A DNA stretch of 29,891 bases, taken from IMG/VR virus record IMGVR_UViG_3300032304_001838, positions 1 through 29,891 of that record. One strand, 5' to 3'. Below, in pieces: positions 4,901 through 20,410 of the stretch. The notes beneath the pieces were generated by a model that had not been told where the DNA came from, made no database searches, and saw only the letters and a program-made list of their open reading frames with translations. Source of the DNA: a virus. A program made the position numbers and the translations under genes. Positions within the stretch are counted from its first letter, which is position 1. Each line of letters begins with the position of its first letter.

Positions 4901-6455
4901 TGGAACATATCAAACAACAACTGATGGTTTTGGTAACGTTTGGTTAGGAATATGGCAACCAACTTTAACACCATCAGTTGGTGATTTAGTAATATGGGCT
5001 GGTTTAGTATGGAGTAATGTTAATGGTTTAGTTGGAGCATCAATTGATGAATATACTTTAGATTCTGAATGGAGTCCGATTGGAAGAAATACTTTTTCTA
5101 ATGGAGAATATATTGAAATGTTTTTAGGTTGTCAATATGATTACACTAATAATTGGATTGAAAAACAATTTGATGGAAATAGTAATATAGTTGGAGTCTC
5201 ATATATAACAGCAACAACAATTTCTTTAACAATAAATCCAACCAGCGTAACGGATTGGAATGCCAATACACTTTATGCTTTATTTTATGAAAATAATGTT
5301 CCTTTTGGAATTTGGAATAATATTACAACACAATTAATTAAAAATAAATGTTCTTCTATTTATAATAATAGAACAAGTGGTTCTATATCTGGTAATACAA
5401 TTCCATTATCTATATTTGATAATATAGAAGTTGATATAGTTGATAATAATAATGAAGGACAAATATCAAATAATAATCAAATAAATCAAACTTTTTTTGA
5501 TATACTCAAAAACTCAAATAAAGGTAGTATAATTGGTAATGAGAATACTTTTGGTGGTAGTTTATCTCTTAGACAAAACTATAATAATGGTGATATAAGT
5601 AATAATGAACTTAAAGGTAACCTACAATATAATGGAAATAATGGTCAAATAAATAATAATATTGGTTTATTTAGTGGTGATAACGTTGAATTTAATACAA
5701 ACTCTGGTGGTATTGGTAGTAATCAAGGACCTATAATATATAATTCAAATAATGGTGAAATATCTTCTTCAACAAATATACAATTTAACTCCAATAATGG
5801 ATATATAACTGCAAATACATCTTCAAGTGTAATATATAATTCAAATTTGGGAAATATAACCAGTAATACGAATGGTGATATATCTAATAATTTTAATGGT
5901 GGTAATATTAATAGTAATTCAAATACTGGCGTTATTAGTAATAATTTTAATGGTAGTGATATTTTTAATAATTCAAATACTGGTGATATAACTTTTAATT
6001 CTAATTTAGGAGTTATAGTAAATAATATAAATGCTGGAAATATATCTTTAAACTCAAATGATGGTCAAATTGATAGTAACTCTTGTGAAGACATTTTTAA
6101 TAATTCAAATTCAGGAAATATAAGTAGTAATTCAAATACTGGTGATATAGAATTTAATAATAATAATGGTGATATATCAAATAATTCAAATGGTGGTCCT
6201 ATTCAAAGTAATTCAAATTTAGGTTCTATTGATAATAATAGTAATACTCAAAAAATTAATCTTAATTCTAATAATGGTTCAATAGGTGGAAATGACAACG
6301 AGATAGCAGATATATCTAATAATCAAAATAATGGTGTAATATTAAATAACACAGGATCAGGTGGTCCTTGGAATATACAGAATAACATAAACAATGGTTT
6401 TATATCTGGAAACTTTATAGCAGATGTTGATGATACTATTGTTAATAAAACATAA
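1992..6455 (+). CDS. giant tail hub/tip protein with Asn-rich repeat region
   Basis: 1487 residues, starting in the TAATG overlap with the previous gene. The N-terminal ~780 residues resemble tail-hub proteins of Bacteroidota siphophages (early motif YSKTLSFPDT and a later hub-like segment up to ITAIDYKIKRSRRF). Residues ~790-885 form short Gly/Asn repeats such as SLLIGDDNSV, VGVLGDLNQV and SYAIGSGITL, reminiscent of YadA-type head repeats. A middle domain (~910-1090) has fibre-like motifs (PGSLYRID, GDLVIWAGLVWSN). Residues ~1150-1475 are an array of nonapeptides. Likely role: tail tip with a built-in receptor-binding or spike region. No peptidase or glycanase motif is seen. Hub identity is inferred from position just before the tape measure and from size. 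Confidence 0.6.
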   Translation: MRFEVIVKINGVNQYLETSDYASFPINYNIADIEDISKKNSSYSKTLSFPDTKNNRKVFEYIYSIQSDSTFDPTKKSRCWIIKDTLTQLEGFLQLTDIVYDNEGNRSSYNCVIYADNGNLFTNIGEKLLTDLNLSQFDHNWTINSITQSWTRDYTNGYYYPLIDYGFGLDTQKLSSGLSVNYFYPSYYLKPIVDQIILEGGYSYTSDFLNSFDFKNIVIPFSNKNLVPSFSNTLVFQNDGLLFSANPTGSVSVISNSSQFGSSITSFNAGNDIYDPNSFYNITGRVYQNGISDPIAQRFGVKIDITYIDYSGSTDGWPFDGDILIWIKRSRSQQTGVTVSNWVNTPTYNQFYSYPSIPFLSTSFYSMRYVGIPQNEITHTNLGGNVWRLEGTIYSKYLTGEDIARTPLYSGEEVRFFAESTNISDPSVAFTIATSSVVFSEVDSNQTTIGSLISFNNNIPKNIKQKDFLSSIMKAFNLYVEPDKNNLNNLIIEPRDDYYRKYQVIKDWSDKLDVSKNITSQILSNTQNRINYFTYKEDKDYYNSVYKTNTGQIFGEYKSETNNEFTNGEKKVELIFSPTPINKITQTNDVYAPTIVNYNNGNFTKVDGMNLRLLYKNLLGLNGDIFKVRNSNNNQSFTQSFYPYAGPMNDPLSPTYSLNFGQVDMFYNGYNETINNLFFNYYQNQVEELNNKNARLITAYFKLDPQDISNFRFSDLIFFKYKGTEGYYRVNKIVDYDPSVNATTKVELITAIDYKIKRSRRFSKPIADSVRPGPIGTIGTIGIGVGIIGDGIGVVVNGDNNSFVGPKSLLIGDDNSVSTRGSVGVLGDLNQVSGEYILTTGVRNRLLGQNLVVFGNDNNLQGVTNSYAIGSGITLTQSNTTIITNDIISISASQININGTISGSFSIPTNYISTTITNLNTTLIPGNLLQPGSLYRIDTEETTYKNNGIFLTAITTNELDKKGTIIFLAPGTYQTTTDGFGNVWLGIWQPTLTPSVGDLVIWAGLVWSNVNGLVGASIDEYTLDSEWSPIGRNTFSNGEYIEMFLGCQYDYTNNWIEKQFDGNSNIVGVSYITATTISLTINPTSVTDWNANTLYALFYENNVPFGIWNNITTQLIKNKCSSIYNNRTSGSISGNTIPLSIFDNIEVDIVDNNNEGQISNNNQINQTFFDILKNSNKGSIIGNENTFGGSLSLRQNYNNGDISNNELKGNLQYNGNNGQINNNIGLFSGDNVEFNTNSGGIGSNQGPIIYNSNNGEISSSTNIQFNSNNGYITANTSSSVIYNSNLGNITSNTNGDISNNFNGGNINSNSNTGVISNNFNGSDIFNNSNTGDITFNSNLGVIVNNINAGNISLNSNDGQIDSNSCEDIFNNSNSGNISSNSNTGDIEFNNNNGDISNNSNGGPIQSNSNLGSIDNNSNTQKINLNSNNGSIGGNDNEIADISNNQNNGVILNNTGSGGPWNIQNNINNGFISGNFIADVDDTIVNKT
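5440..6430 (+). repeat. DNA array encoding degenerate xNxNxGxIx nonapeptides
   Basis: Within the giant tail gene, this stretch codes for about 30 imperfect 9-residue units such as NNSNTGDIT, FNSNLGVIV, LNSNDGQID, SNSNTGDIE and FNNNNGDIS. Every unit keeps Asn at positions 2 and 4, usually Gly at 6, and Ile/Val at 8. At DNA level the 27-base unit varies around aattcaaatactggtgatata. The nine-residue period with one buried aliphatic residue suggests a parallel beta-roll or solenoid. Confidence 0.85.
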
Positions 6456-15816: not shown

Positions 15817-15939
15817 TTATAAAAAAAATAAAAATAATTTTTACTCACCATCAAAATTTCTAAAATTTCCCACATATAGTTATAAACTAATATATAATTT
15901 TTATATATAATATATATAAATAAAAAAGAAAGATAAATT

Positions 15940-16107
15940 ATGAAAACAAAATTAAACAAAAAAGAAAGAGAAAGGTTAGAATTCTTAATAGAATTTACAC
16001 AAATGTTAAAAACACCTTTAACAAATAAAGATGAAATAACTGAGAAAAATCTACAAAAAGCTAACCAAGAAATGAGAGAATTGAAACTAAAAGAGCTCGG
16101 AATATAA
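15940..16107 (+). CDS. small helical protein, unknown
   Basis: 55 residues from ATG 15940, with an A-rich leader (aaataaaaaagaaagataaatt). Highly charged and helical (KKERERLEFLIEFTQML; NLQKANQEMRELKLKEL), probably a short coiled coil. It is the first gene after the 15771 terminator and an AT-rich stretch of about 120 bases containing TAATATATA at 15888-15896, so it probably opens a new transcription unit. No family recognised. Confidence 0.5.
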   Translation: MKTKLNKKERERLEFLIEFTQMLKTPLTNKDEITEKNLQKANQEMRELKLKELGI

Positions 16108-16138
16108 TCCGATCTTTAAAAAATAAAAAACACACATT

Positions 16139-16345
16139 ATGAGAACATTAGATTATGAAAAAAAGACAAGAGTTATTCAAAAGATTAATTCAATCCAACC
16201 GAAGTTTAGATATACAATCTATTATAGAGAGTTGGAGCAAATGAAAAAGAAGTACATCTATAAAGATATATCAGAAAACGATTTTAAACGTGATTTAAGA
16301 ACGCTTAAACTAATAAACGATATATCTATTATAAACAAAAAATAA
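16139..16345 (+). CDS. small basic protein, unknown
   Basis: 68 residues, Lys/Arg-rich, with two or three helices (DYEKKTRVIQKINSI; YRELEQMKKKYIY; DFKRDLRTLKLIN). The arrangement could be a small winged-helix or DNA-binding fold, but no diagnostic motif is seen. It lies in a run of similarly small genes with 10-30 base gaps. Confidence 0.5.
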   Translation: MRTLDYEKKTRVIQKINSIQPKFRYTIYYRELEQMKKKYIYKDISENDFKRDLRTLKLINDISIINKK

Positions 16346-17133: not shown

Positions 17134-17181
17134 AACGGGCAATTTATATAACAAACATTAACGGCAATTAAACGGCAATTA
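17134..17181 (+). repeat. tandem 11-base direct repeats upstream of the RNA
   Basis: AACGGCAATTA occurs twice back to back (17160-17170 and 17171-17181), with a degenerate copy AACGGGCAATT at 17134-17144. The 11-base period puts the adjacent copies on the same DNA face, as expected for a protein-binding site. They end about 10 bases before the G+C-rich segment begins. Confidence 0.6.
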
Positions 17182-17186
17182 GATTT

Positions 17187-17560
17187 AACAGGGGAGGTGA
17201 AAGCGATGTGGCCTTGTTATCTTATCATTACTACCACGGGGAGCTCACATAAAAGTAATAACTCTGGTATTTAAGTTAGGAGGAGTTGAGTGAGCGGAGG
17301 ACCTAATACCTTCGATAAGTAGCTGACAAATGAATATACATAGGTGCTATATTCTGGACCGATGGGGAACACGGCAAGTGATTCAACTCAGAAGCGTTCG
17401 ATAACTCACCTTGACTCAATAAAAAGAGCCGAGGAGGGTTATCGTATGCGAACCTCAAAAGAACTGGCAAATGAGCAGAAGCACTAGATTATCTAGATGC
17501 GAAAATTAAAAAATAAAGAAGTTTAAAACGACTCGTCCTGGTGACGAGTCTTTAAGTTTA
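17187..17560 (+). ncRNA. candidate large structured non-coding RNA (~370 nt)
   Basis: No long ORF lies between 17073 and 17715. From 17191 to 17550 I count about 42% G+C, far above the surroundings. Compatible nested helices are visible: 17194-17200 with 17406-17412; 17283-17291 with 17381-17389 (9 pairs, one G-T); hairpin 17332-17338 with 17348-17354 (7 pairs). Downstream hairpins are 17481-17488/17492-17500 (bulged A) and 17521-17527 plus 17530-17537 pairing with 17543-17557 (15 pairs, 5-base loop), a plausible 3' end. Other pairings (17276-17280/17302-17306; 17232-17236/17265-17269) would form alternatives or pseudoknots. Not recognisable as tmRNA, RNase P, SRP, tRNA or a self-splicing intron. 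GOLLD, ROOL or HEARO-type phage RNAs are possible relatives; I could not test this. Strand is assumed from the neighbours. Confidence 0.7.
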
Positions 17561-17603
17561 AGGACATATATATCAAGAGAATCATAAAGATTAACTTAGT
17601 ATC

Positions 17604-17715: not shown

Positions 17716-17892
17716 ATGGAAAACGATAAATACTTAAATATAAGACCTACCTTCAACAGGAATAATCCTCATAACACCGAAATGATTACAAAAGAAAGAT
17801 TATGGCAATGGGTTGATTCATTTCACCAAAGAACAGGATTTAAAGATGGTATTGAAAGATCAGAAAGAGAGAAAAACAGAAATGACTTTTAA
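17716..17892 (+). CDS. small protein, unknown
   Basis: 58 residues from ATG 17716. N-terminal part is Asn-rich (NIRPTFNRNNPHNTEM), then an aromatic helix (ITKERLWQWVDSFHQRT) and a charged end (DGIERSEREKNRNDF). No family recognised. It follows the structured RNA candidate and precedes the zinc-ribbon gene by 17 bases. Confidence 0.5.
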   Translation: MENDKYLNIRPTFNRNNPHNTEMITKERLWQWVDSFHQRTGFKDGIERSEREKNRNDF

Positions 17893-18520: not shown

Positions 18521-20410
18521 ATGAAATTAATGTTAGGAAATAATATAGAATCATTGAAACAATTACCAGATAACTCGGTAGATTCAGTAGTTACTGATCC
18601 ACCTTATGGTTTAAGTTTTATGAATAAAAAATGGGACTATGATGTTCCATCAGTCCAATTCTGGAAAGAGGTTTATAGAGTTTTAAAACCAGGAGGACAT
18701 ATATTGAGTTTTGGTGGAACCAGAACATATCACAGAATGGTTGTAAATATAGAAGATGCTGGCTTTGAAATTAGAGACCAGATTATGTGGTTATATGGTA
18801 GTGGCTTTCCGAAAAGCCATAATATAGGTAAAGCAGTTGATAAGTTTGGTGGTAATAATTTATTATCCACTGAAATAGGAACTCAATTAAAAGAAGCCAG
18901 AACCAAAAGAGGTTTAACATTAAAAGCGGCTGATGAATTATTTTGTAATGGAACATCAAATTACAACTGGTTAGAAGGTAGAAGTGATGGACAGAGGATT
19001 CCGAATCAAGAATTATTTGATAAGATAGTTGTTGAATGGCCTGAATTAAAAGATATAAGAGATAAAGTTTTAGAGACAGAAAGAGAAATACTTGGAACTG
19101 AAATTACAAACAAAACAGTAATGAGTAAAATTGGTGAAGAAAATGAATCAGGTGAATATGTAAGAACAAAAGGTCAATCTGATTGGGAAGGTTGGGGAAC
19201 CGCGCTCAAACCAGCAAATGAACCAATTTGTGTAGCAAGAAAACCTTTAAGTGAAAAATCAGTGGCTGAAAATGTTTTGAAATGGGGAACTGGTGGTATA
19301 AATGTTGATGGATGTAGAGTTGGATTTGATATGAGTGATAAAAACCCTGCGACTAATCCTTTATATAGATTCCAAAATAAAGATAAATATAAACAAGTAA
19401 CAGATCACGGGCAAAGAGAAGGAGAAAATGTCGCTTTTACAAACTCATTAAATCCACCATCAACAGAAGGCAGATTCCCAGCCAACATCATATTAGAGTG
19501 TATATGTGATAATCGTGAAGGTAGTGAGTCTCACGAAAATCCGAATTGTCCTTGTTATTTATTAGATGAACAGAGTGGTGTAACTATATCAAAAGGACCT
19601 CTAAAATATGATTTAAATGAATCAACGAATCAAAATAACCAAACAAAATTGACAAAAAATATAAAAAGTGGAATTCATTTTACTGATAAAGGTGGTGCAT
19701 CAAGATTCTTTTATCAAGCAAAAGTCTCAAAAGCAGAAAGAAATATGGGATTAGATGGATTTGAAGTAGAACACACCAATCCGAATTGTCCTTGTTATAT
19801 ATTAGATGAGCAGAGTGGATTTTTAAAAGGAGATAGTCCTAATAGAAAACCAAGAAAGGAAGGACATAGACAAGAATATGTTGGAACTGATAATAATGAA
19901 ATTAGAAATATAGTTATTGAGCCAACAATTTTTGATAGTGGCGGTGCATCAAGATTCTTTTATCAAGCAAAAGTCTCAAAAGCAGAAAGAAATATGGGAT
20001 TAGATGGATTTGAAGAGAAAGAAGTGTCAATACAACAACCACATAATTCTAAATCATTAGAGGAAAGATATGAAATGAAAACAAAGAACAACCATCCAAC
20101 AGTCAAACCAGTTAATTTAATGGCATATCTATGTAGATTAGTAACACCACAAGGTGGAGTTGTTTTAGATCCTTTTATGGGTTCTGGATCAACTGGTATA
20201 GCAGCAAGATTGGAAGGATTTGATTTTATTGGGATGGAAATGGATTCGGACTATATGAAAATAGCAGAATCAAGAATAGAAAGTTTTGACAAATATAAAA
20301 AATTCCATAATAAAAACACTGACCTTAAAAATGGTAATACAAGAATGGCAAGTCGTAGTGATAATAGTAATTCAATCGGACTCGGTATATGTAAAAATAA
20401 GAAAAAATAA
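18521..20410 (+). CDS. beta-class DNA N4/N6 methyltransferase with insert and internal duplication
   Basis: 629 residues. The catalytic motif DPPYG is at residues 26-30 and the AdoMet-binding motif VLDPFMGSGSTG at about 548-559, so the motif order is that of the beta class (N4-cytosine or N6-adenine). Residues ~119-170 hold a helix-turn-helix-like segment (IGTQLKEARTKRGLTLKAADEL...NYNWLEGR), as in XRE repressors, inserted in the methylase. The middle carries RFPANIILE and a Cys-rich NPNCPCYLLDEQSG motif. A tandem duplication repeats that motif (340-353 and 420-433) and GASRFFYQAKVSKAERNMGL (from 392 and from 475). No partner restriction gene is next to it, so it is probably a solitary phage enzyme protecting its DNA or altering host methylation. 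Target sequence cannot be read. Confidence 0.85.
   Translation: MKLMLGNNIESLKQLPDNSVDSVVTDPPYGLSFMNKKWDYDVPSVQFWKEVYRVLKPGGHILSFGGTRTYHRMVVNIEDAGFEIRDQIMWLYGSGFPKSHNIGKAVDKFGGNNLLSTEIGTQLKEARTKRGLTLKAADELFCNGTSNYNWLEGRSDGQRIPNQELFDKIVVEWPELKDIRDKVLETEREILGTEITNKTVMSKIGEENESGEYVRTKGQSDWEGWGTALKPANEPICVARKPLSEKSVAENVLKWGTGGINVDGCRVGFDMSDKNPATNPLYRFQNKDKYKQVTDHGQREGENVAFTNSLNPPSTEGRFPANIILECICDNREGSESHENPNCPCYLLDEQSGVTISKGPLKYDLNESTNQNNQTKLTKNIKSGIHFTDKGGASRFFYQAKVSKAERNMGLDGFEVEHTNPNCPCYILDEQSGFLKGDSPNRKPRKEGHRQEYVGTDNNEIRNIVIEPTIFDSGGASRFFYQAKVSKAERNMGLDGFEEKEVSIQQPHNSKSLEERYEMKTKNNHPTVKPVNLMAYLCRLVTPQGGVVLDPFMGSGSTGIAARLEGFDFIGMEMDSDYMKIAESRIESFDKYKKFHNKNTDLKNGNTRMASRSDNSNSIGLGICKNKKK
19538..20015 (+). 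repeat. tandem duplication inside the methyltransferase
   Basis: A 73-base block starting ggtgcatcaagattctttta is identical at 19694-19766 and 19943-20015 (offset 249). A second block of about 41 bases starting aatccgaattgtccttgtta recurs at 19538-19578 and 19778-19818 (offset 240) with two differences. Both are in the same reading frame. Confidence 0.92.

Follow-up and report, generated by a model that had tools for sequence, protein, structure and literature searches.

The window analysed here, a 29.9-kb virus record (G000) taken over its whole length of 29,891 nucleotides, carries on its + strand what is almost certainly a real structured RNA gene. Together with two homologues that share its helices through compensatory base-pair changes it makes up a well-supported three-member family of structured RNA. 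Our best explanation of the whole, held somewhat short of even confidence, is a stand-alone RNA gene of a tailed Bacteroidota phage, about 375 nt long, whose product would bind a partner and act in trans.

The window encodes a terminase, a tape measure protein, a tail fibre and a head protease (PHROG matches), as well as a DNA methylase and a holin (Pfam/PHROG matches). The portal protein shares 28% identity with its counterpart in Nonlabens phage P12024S, which makes a Bacteroidota host most likely; in P12024S a single annotated gap (16021-16313) is large enough for such an RNA. The RNA gene lies in a block of small genes, with the structural genes on one side and the methylase/terminase genes on the other; more narrowly, the block is bounded by the holin/nuclease region and the methylase. 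Accessory blocks of this kind are where phages often keep anti-host and anti-defence genes. Two other features of the window were recorded in passing. The protein encoded at 23980-24834 matches the PHROG of beta-glucosyl-HMC-alpha-glucosyltransferase (E 9e-73), which hints at glucosylated DNA bases in this phage, and the methylase gene contains a 94%-identical direct repeat (19677-19771 and 19928-20019).

A first-pass annotation had singled out 17187-17560 as a G+C-rich stretch of some 370 bases without a long ORF, and both observations held. Its G+C content is 0.412 (that is 41.2%, where 42% had been claimed) against 0.286 for the whole window, with a peak of 0.425 in the sliding profile. No ORF of at least 60 aa crosses it and G+C varies little with codon position (0.38-0.44); as the mini-ORFs within it are not conserved either, a protein-coding reading was discarded. 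The stretch has a minimum free energy of -96.9 kcal/mol (z = -2.55), which 2 of 100 dinucleotide shuffles equal or better, and a repeat run gave z = -2.78 with 0 of 100, so that the fold beats 98-100% of dinucleotide shuffles. These folding z-scores are modest in the window (-2.6) and only -1.3 in the more divergent homologue.

Both homologues come from IMG/VR. One of them, L095 (L142 is the same contig), was brought in by a 15-base motif scan and is 77% identical to the window RNA over about 400 nt (411 nt, E 1e-83), with similarity from 17159 to 17561 by blastn and nhmmer. The other, L045, was brought in by a methylase search and is very divergent (nhmmer E 3e-8); with the window as its only input, a covariance model scores it at 51 bits (E 6.5e-10 over 615 kb). 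One more record, L002, is identical to the window over 18 kb, and the distinct sequences known are three, all in phages of one lineage. The RNA is absent from the nearest relatives of the window, L004 and L005 (portals 76% and 65% identical); it gives the top match when the DNA of the window and of L142 is compared, even though their portal proteins are only 37% identical. This suggests a cassette either exchanged between phages or held by strong selection, and the data fit both. No relative was found among 50,697 phage records, and the matches in cultured phages and plasmids were short AT-rich chance matches rather than homologues. A covariance-model search of 395 Bacteroidota genomes, run with strict filters and no positive control there, gave no match. 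Further motif scans of viral contigs and one across bacterial and archaeal genomes added no genuine member by the criteria of the model and nhmmer; the hits in L125, L072 and genome contigs were coding or due to chance.

The features of the locus are as follows.

17159..17561, + strand: whole RNA gene, defined by similarity to L095/L142
17161..17187, + strand: region directly 5' of P1 and possible promoter; two ACGGCAATT copies, with AATTAGATTTA abutting P1 (alignments, pattern counts)
17186..17219, + strand: helix P1 (17186-17193 with 17212-17219); 3 of 8 pairs changed on both sides between the window and L095
17193..17209, + strand: Shine-Dalgarno-like GGAGGTGA, 8 nt, then ATG; start of a 22-codon mini-ORF whose protein is not conserved
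17244..17294, + strand: helix P2 (17244-17248 with 17290-17294); 3 of 5 pairs changed on both sides, and three pair types in two of these
17261..17286, + strand: helix P3, nested in P2 (17261-17264 with 17283-17286); 1 compensatory pair
17295..17314, + strand: helix P4 (17295-17300 with 17309-17314); 2 of 6 pairs changed on both sides
17315..17331, + strand: unpaired P4-P5 linker; AAGTRGMTG...AATGRA conserved in all three RNAs
17332..17354, + strand: helix P5 (17332-17338 with 17348-17354); 3 of 7 pairs changed on both sides
17373..17377, + strand: GGCAA motif 1, internal and unpaired; same spacing from P1 in all three RNAs
17394..17449, + strand: long hairpin P6; sequence almost wholly replaced in L045, still a helix (hand alignment)
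17466..17470, + strand: GGCAA motif 2, internal; same spacing in all three RNAs
17481..17500, + strand: hairpin P7 (core 17484-17488 with 17492-17496; hand alignment)
17530..17559, + strand: P8, terminator-like hairpin with T-rich tail, GACTCGTC/GACGAGTC in the window and GACCCGTC/GACGGGTC in L095; similarity to L095 ends here

Compensatory changes maintain five or more local helices (P1-P5), downstream of which come three hairpins, P6-P8. In the model-based alignment of the three sequences, which covers the 5' half, 97.7% of cells are standard pairs and 12 of 31 pairs are changed on both sides. None of 500 shuffles reaches any of the observed values, and shifting the 3' partners 1 to 3 columns along lowers pairing to 40-51% and double changes to 0-2. 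Covariation is clearest in P2, which reads CUCAC/GUGAG, CUUAUC/GAUAAG and CUAUAC/GUAUAG in the three phages. The alignment behind these counts was fitted to the window's structure, and with only three distinct sequences known the covariation rests on few events. When P6-P8 and the L045 counterpart of P1, an equivalent bulged helix, are added by hand, 26 of 55 pairs show double changes, a count that is supportive only, because these helices were chosen by eye. The hand alignment has 11 G-U pairs and no A-C on the + strand, which favours an RNA of that strand. Two homologues and strong covariation now support the view that this phage carries a large structured non-coding RNA gene. The pairings originally named fared unequally: the local hairpins 17332-17354 (P5), 17481-17500 (P7) and 17521-17557 (P8) are conserved, whereas the long-range pairings 17194-17200/17406-17412 and 17283-17291/17381-17389 are present in the window and not kept in L095 and L045. 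We also propose that the P3 loop UGGUA may form a pseudoknot with UACCA at 17232-17236, a pairing that covariation does not test because it is invariant or nearly so.

The first conserved helix begins at 17186, and the RNA probably starts near 17180-17187 and ends after P8. The element abutting P1 has counterparts in L095 (AAAATTGATTTA) and L045 (CAATTTGGCTTA), and the region 5' of P1 may be a promoter. P8 resembles a terminator in the window and L095; the L045 hairpin has no T run. The genes flanking the RNA on both sides differ in each of the three phages, and this, with the stop of similarity at the terminator-like hairpin, points to an independent, exchangeable RNA gene rather than a 5' UTR. 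We consider it probable that the RNA acts in trans rather than as a cis-regulatory element.

None of 4,227 Rfam families, GOLLD, ROOL, HEARO, introns, tmRNA and RNase P included, matches the window RNA at gathering thresholds. At the homologue loci, too, every Rfam family, GOLLD, ROOL and HEARO included, stays below threshold, and searches of all three RNAs at E up to 10 return only chance-level, implausible matches. The first-pass annotation had found the RNA unlike tmRNA, RNase P or an intron, which agrees with these scans and, for tmRNA, with ARAGORN. It had also offered membership of GOLLD, ROOL or HEARO or else a new class; the former falls and only a new class is left. The window RNA resembles ROOL as a large multi-helix RNA encoded in phages or prophages, and GOLLD as a phage-borne, structured RNA with variable 5' and 3' domains. 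Compared with ROOL, however, it is much shorter, matches neither in sequence nor by covariance model and has no tRNA island nearby (ARAGORN detects no tRNA gene in the 29.9-kb window); compared with GOLLD, often more than 800 nt long (PMC12286853), it has no model match and three known members. By the tests applied it is no member of GOLLD/ROOL, and we take it for a new family of structured phage RNA. Sponge RNAs of the CsrB/RsmZ type are about 370 nt long and consist of a chain of hairpins with a terminator hairpin at the end and a repeated short motif. The window RNA shares this size and layout but keeps its repeated GGCAA outside hairpin loops and has no Rfam match. Nor is there an excess of GGA, as would mark a CsrA sponge (9, 9 and 10 copies in the three RNAs against shuffle means of 9.1, 9.0 and 11.0).

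The two GGCAA motifs hold their position across the family. Their offsets from P1 are 186, 184 and 189 for the first and 279, 281 and 283 for the second in the window, L095 and L045 respectively, and the helices around them are replaced while this spacing stays fixed. Such fixed spacing amid fast-changing helices is as expected of an RNA that binds at several sites. In L045 both motifs sit in a 19-nt direct repeat with 18/19 identical positions, a match that none of 60 shuffles equals; in the other two RNAs the repeated leader falls short of significance (p = 0.07 in the window, p = 0.49 in L095). The P1 loop of the window and L095 presents GGAGGTGA and ATG at ideal spacing. Neither mini-ORF is conserved as protein, the one opened in P1 being frame-shifted between the window and L095 and the other differing by non-synonymous changes. 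From the GGCAA spacing, the P1 loop and the non-conserved mini-ORFs we infer a partner-binding, trans-acting RNA. Its own promoter would drive the gene and the transcript would be released at P8; the RNA would then serve as a sponge, decoy or scaffold for a single protein or RNA of host or phage, to which it would offer the two unpaired GGCAA segments and perhaps also the purine-rich P1 loop. Candidate partners would be a protein and the 30S subunit. For the binding-decoy or scaffold mechanism taken alone our confidence is tentative. The window as a whole has 28 copies of GGCAA on the + strand and none on the - strand, a bias that probably reflects codon usage and gene orientation.

Among other readings of the locus, the RNA could be a ribosome-binding decoy or a dual-function RNA, in which GGAGGTGA and ATG in the P1 loop and GGAGG and ATG in P6 engage the 30S subunit or its anti-Shine-Dalgarno sequence, with or without translation of the mini-ORFs. 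GGAGG occurs 4 times in the 375 nt of the window RNA (0 of 1000 shuffles) and 3 times in L095 (p 0.015), and nearly all other genes of the window have A-rich starts with no Shine-Dalgarno sequence. Three of the five GGAGG-N4-10-RTG sites of the window lie within the RNA, both strong Shine-Dalgarno and ATG pairs (17193-17209 and 17433-17448) are conserved in L095, and the L045 P1 loop reads GAGG...AUG AUG AUA UAA. However, GGAGG is not enriched in L045 (p 0.16), some of the Shine-Dalgarno-like sites fall inside conserved helices and the encoded peptides are not conserved; we hold this reading to be unlikely. We regard as rather unlikely a self-assembling ornate RNA of the GOLLD/ROOL type that forms RNA-only oligomers through loop-loop contacts. 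GOLLD and ROOL are phage-encoded, often near tRNA islands, and build RNA-only cages, and together with OLE they form homo-oligomers (PMC12286853). By analogy the window RNA, phage-encoded, rich in helices and with no evident protein partner, might perhaps work like them. It is smaller than GOLLD, though, lacks Rfam similarity and a tRNA island, and no palindromic kissing loop common to all three RNAs was noticed.

A cis-acting leader of the downstream small gene, be it a 5' UTR, a riboswitch or an attenuator, is quite unlikely in our judgement. Some 155 nt of further non-coding DNA separate P8 from the gene at 17716 and the RNA ends in a terminator-like hairpin, as a leader might. The downstream genes (17716 in the window, 6920 in L095, 830 in L045) are unlike one another by eye, however, and have no Pfam match, and in L095 the next operon has a promoter-like motif of its own after the RNA. 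A degenerate or unrecognised ribozyme or self-splicing intron would suit the size and number of helices. We nevertheless find it very improbable: with E allowed up to 10, none of the three homologues matches a group I or II intron, HEARO, RNase P or tmRNA, the Rfam models recognise no conserved core of an intron, RNase P or tmRNA, and the locus lies between genes and not inside one. A type III toxin-antitoxin system was dropped, since there is no tandem repeat array and the adjacent gene encodes only 58 aa.

Two AT-rich phages of the same methylase group, L019 and L073, carry G+C-rich, ORF-free islands that fold strongly on the + strand (2626-2995, z -4.4, and 5244-5545, z -3.4, respectively). 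They are not members of the family, the scores obtained with model filters off being those of chance, and they have no Rfam match at gathering thresholds. The L019 island immediately precedes a gene homologous to window gene 17910, and its segment 2787-2968 matches most of the glmS ribozyme model below threshold (19 bits where the cut-off is 37; E 0.012 to 0.066), which may be due to chance. These islands suggest that medium-sized structured RNAs may recur in this phage lineage. A broader proposal, fairly unlikely as it stands, is that these phages carry a new class of RNA able to commandeer a core piece of host machinery, such as the 30S subunit (by Shine-Dalgarno mimicry) or an RNA-binding protein (by means of paired GGCAA modules). 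This RNA would be exchanged as a cassette among Bacteroidota phages, and unrelated RNAs of the same size would fill its role in sister phages L019 and L073. Large structured phage RNAs are few and their jobs are mostly unknown. The window RNA is compact, has clear ends and exists in three comparable versions; it offers a predicted transcript of defined extent, a fold open to testing and two candidate motifs for contact with a partner.

A non-coding motif, TTTTTAnYCACCATnRAAATTT followed by TATATAATATATAT and then ATG, is common to the window (15838-15918), L142 (9772-9850) and L045 (1140-1230). In the window and L045 a strong terminator comes before it, and its features resemble those of a conserved phage promoter that would serve the small-gene operon.
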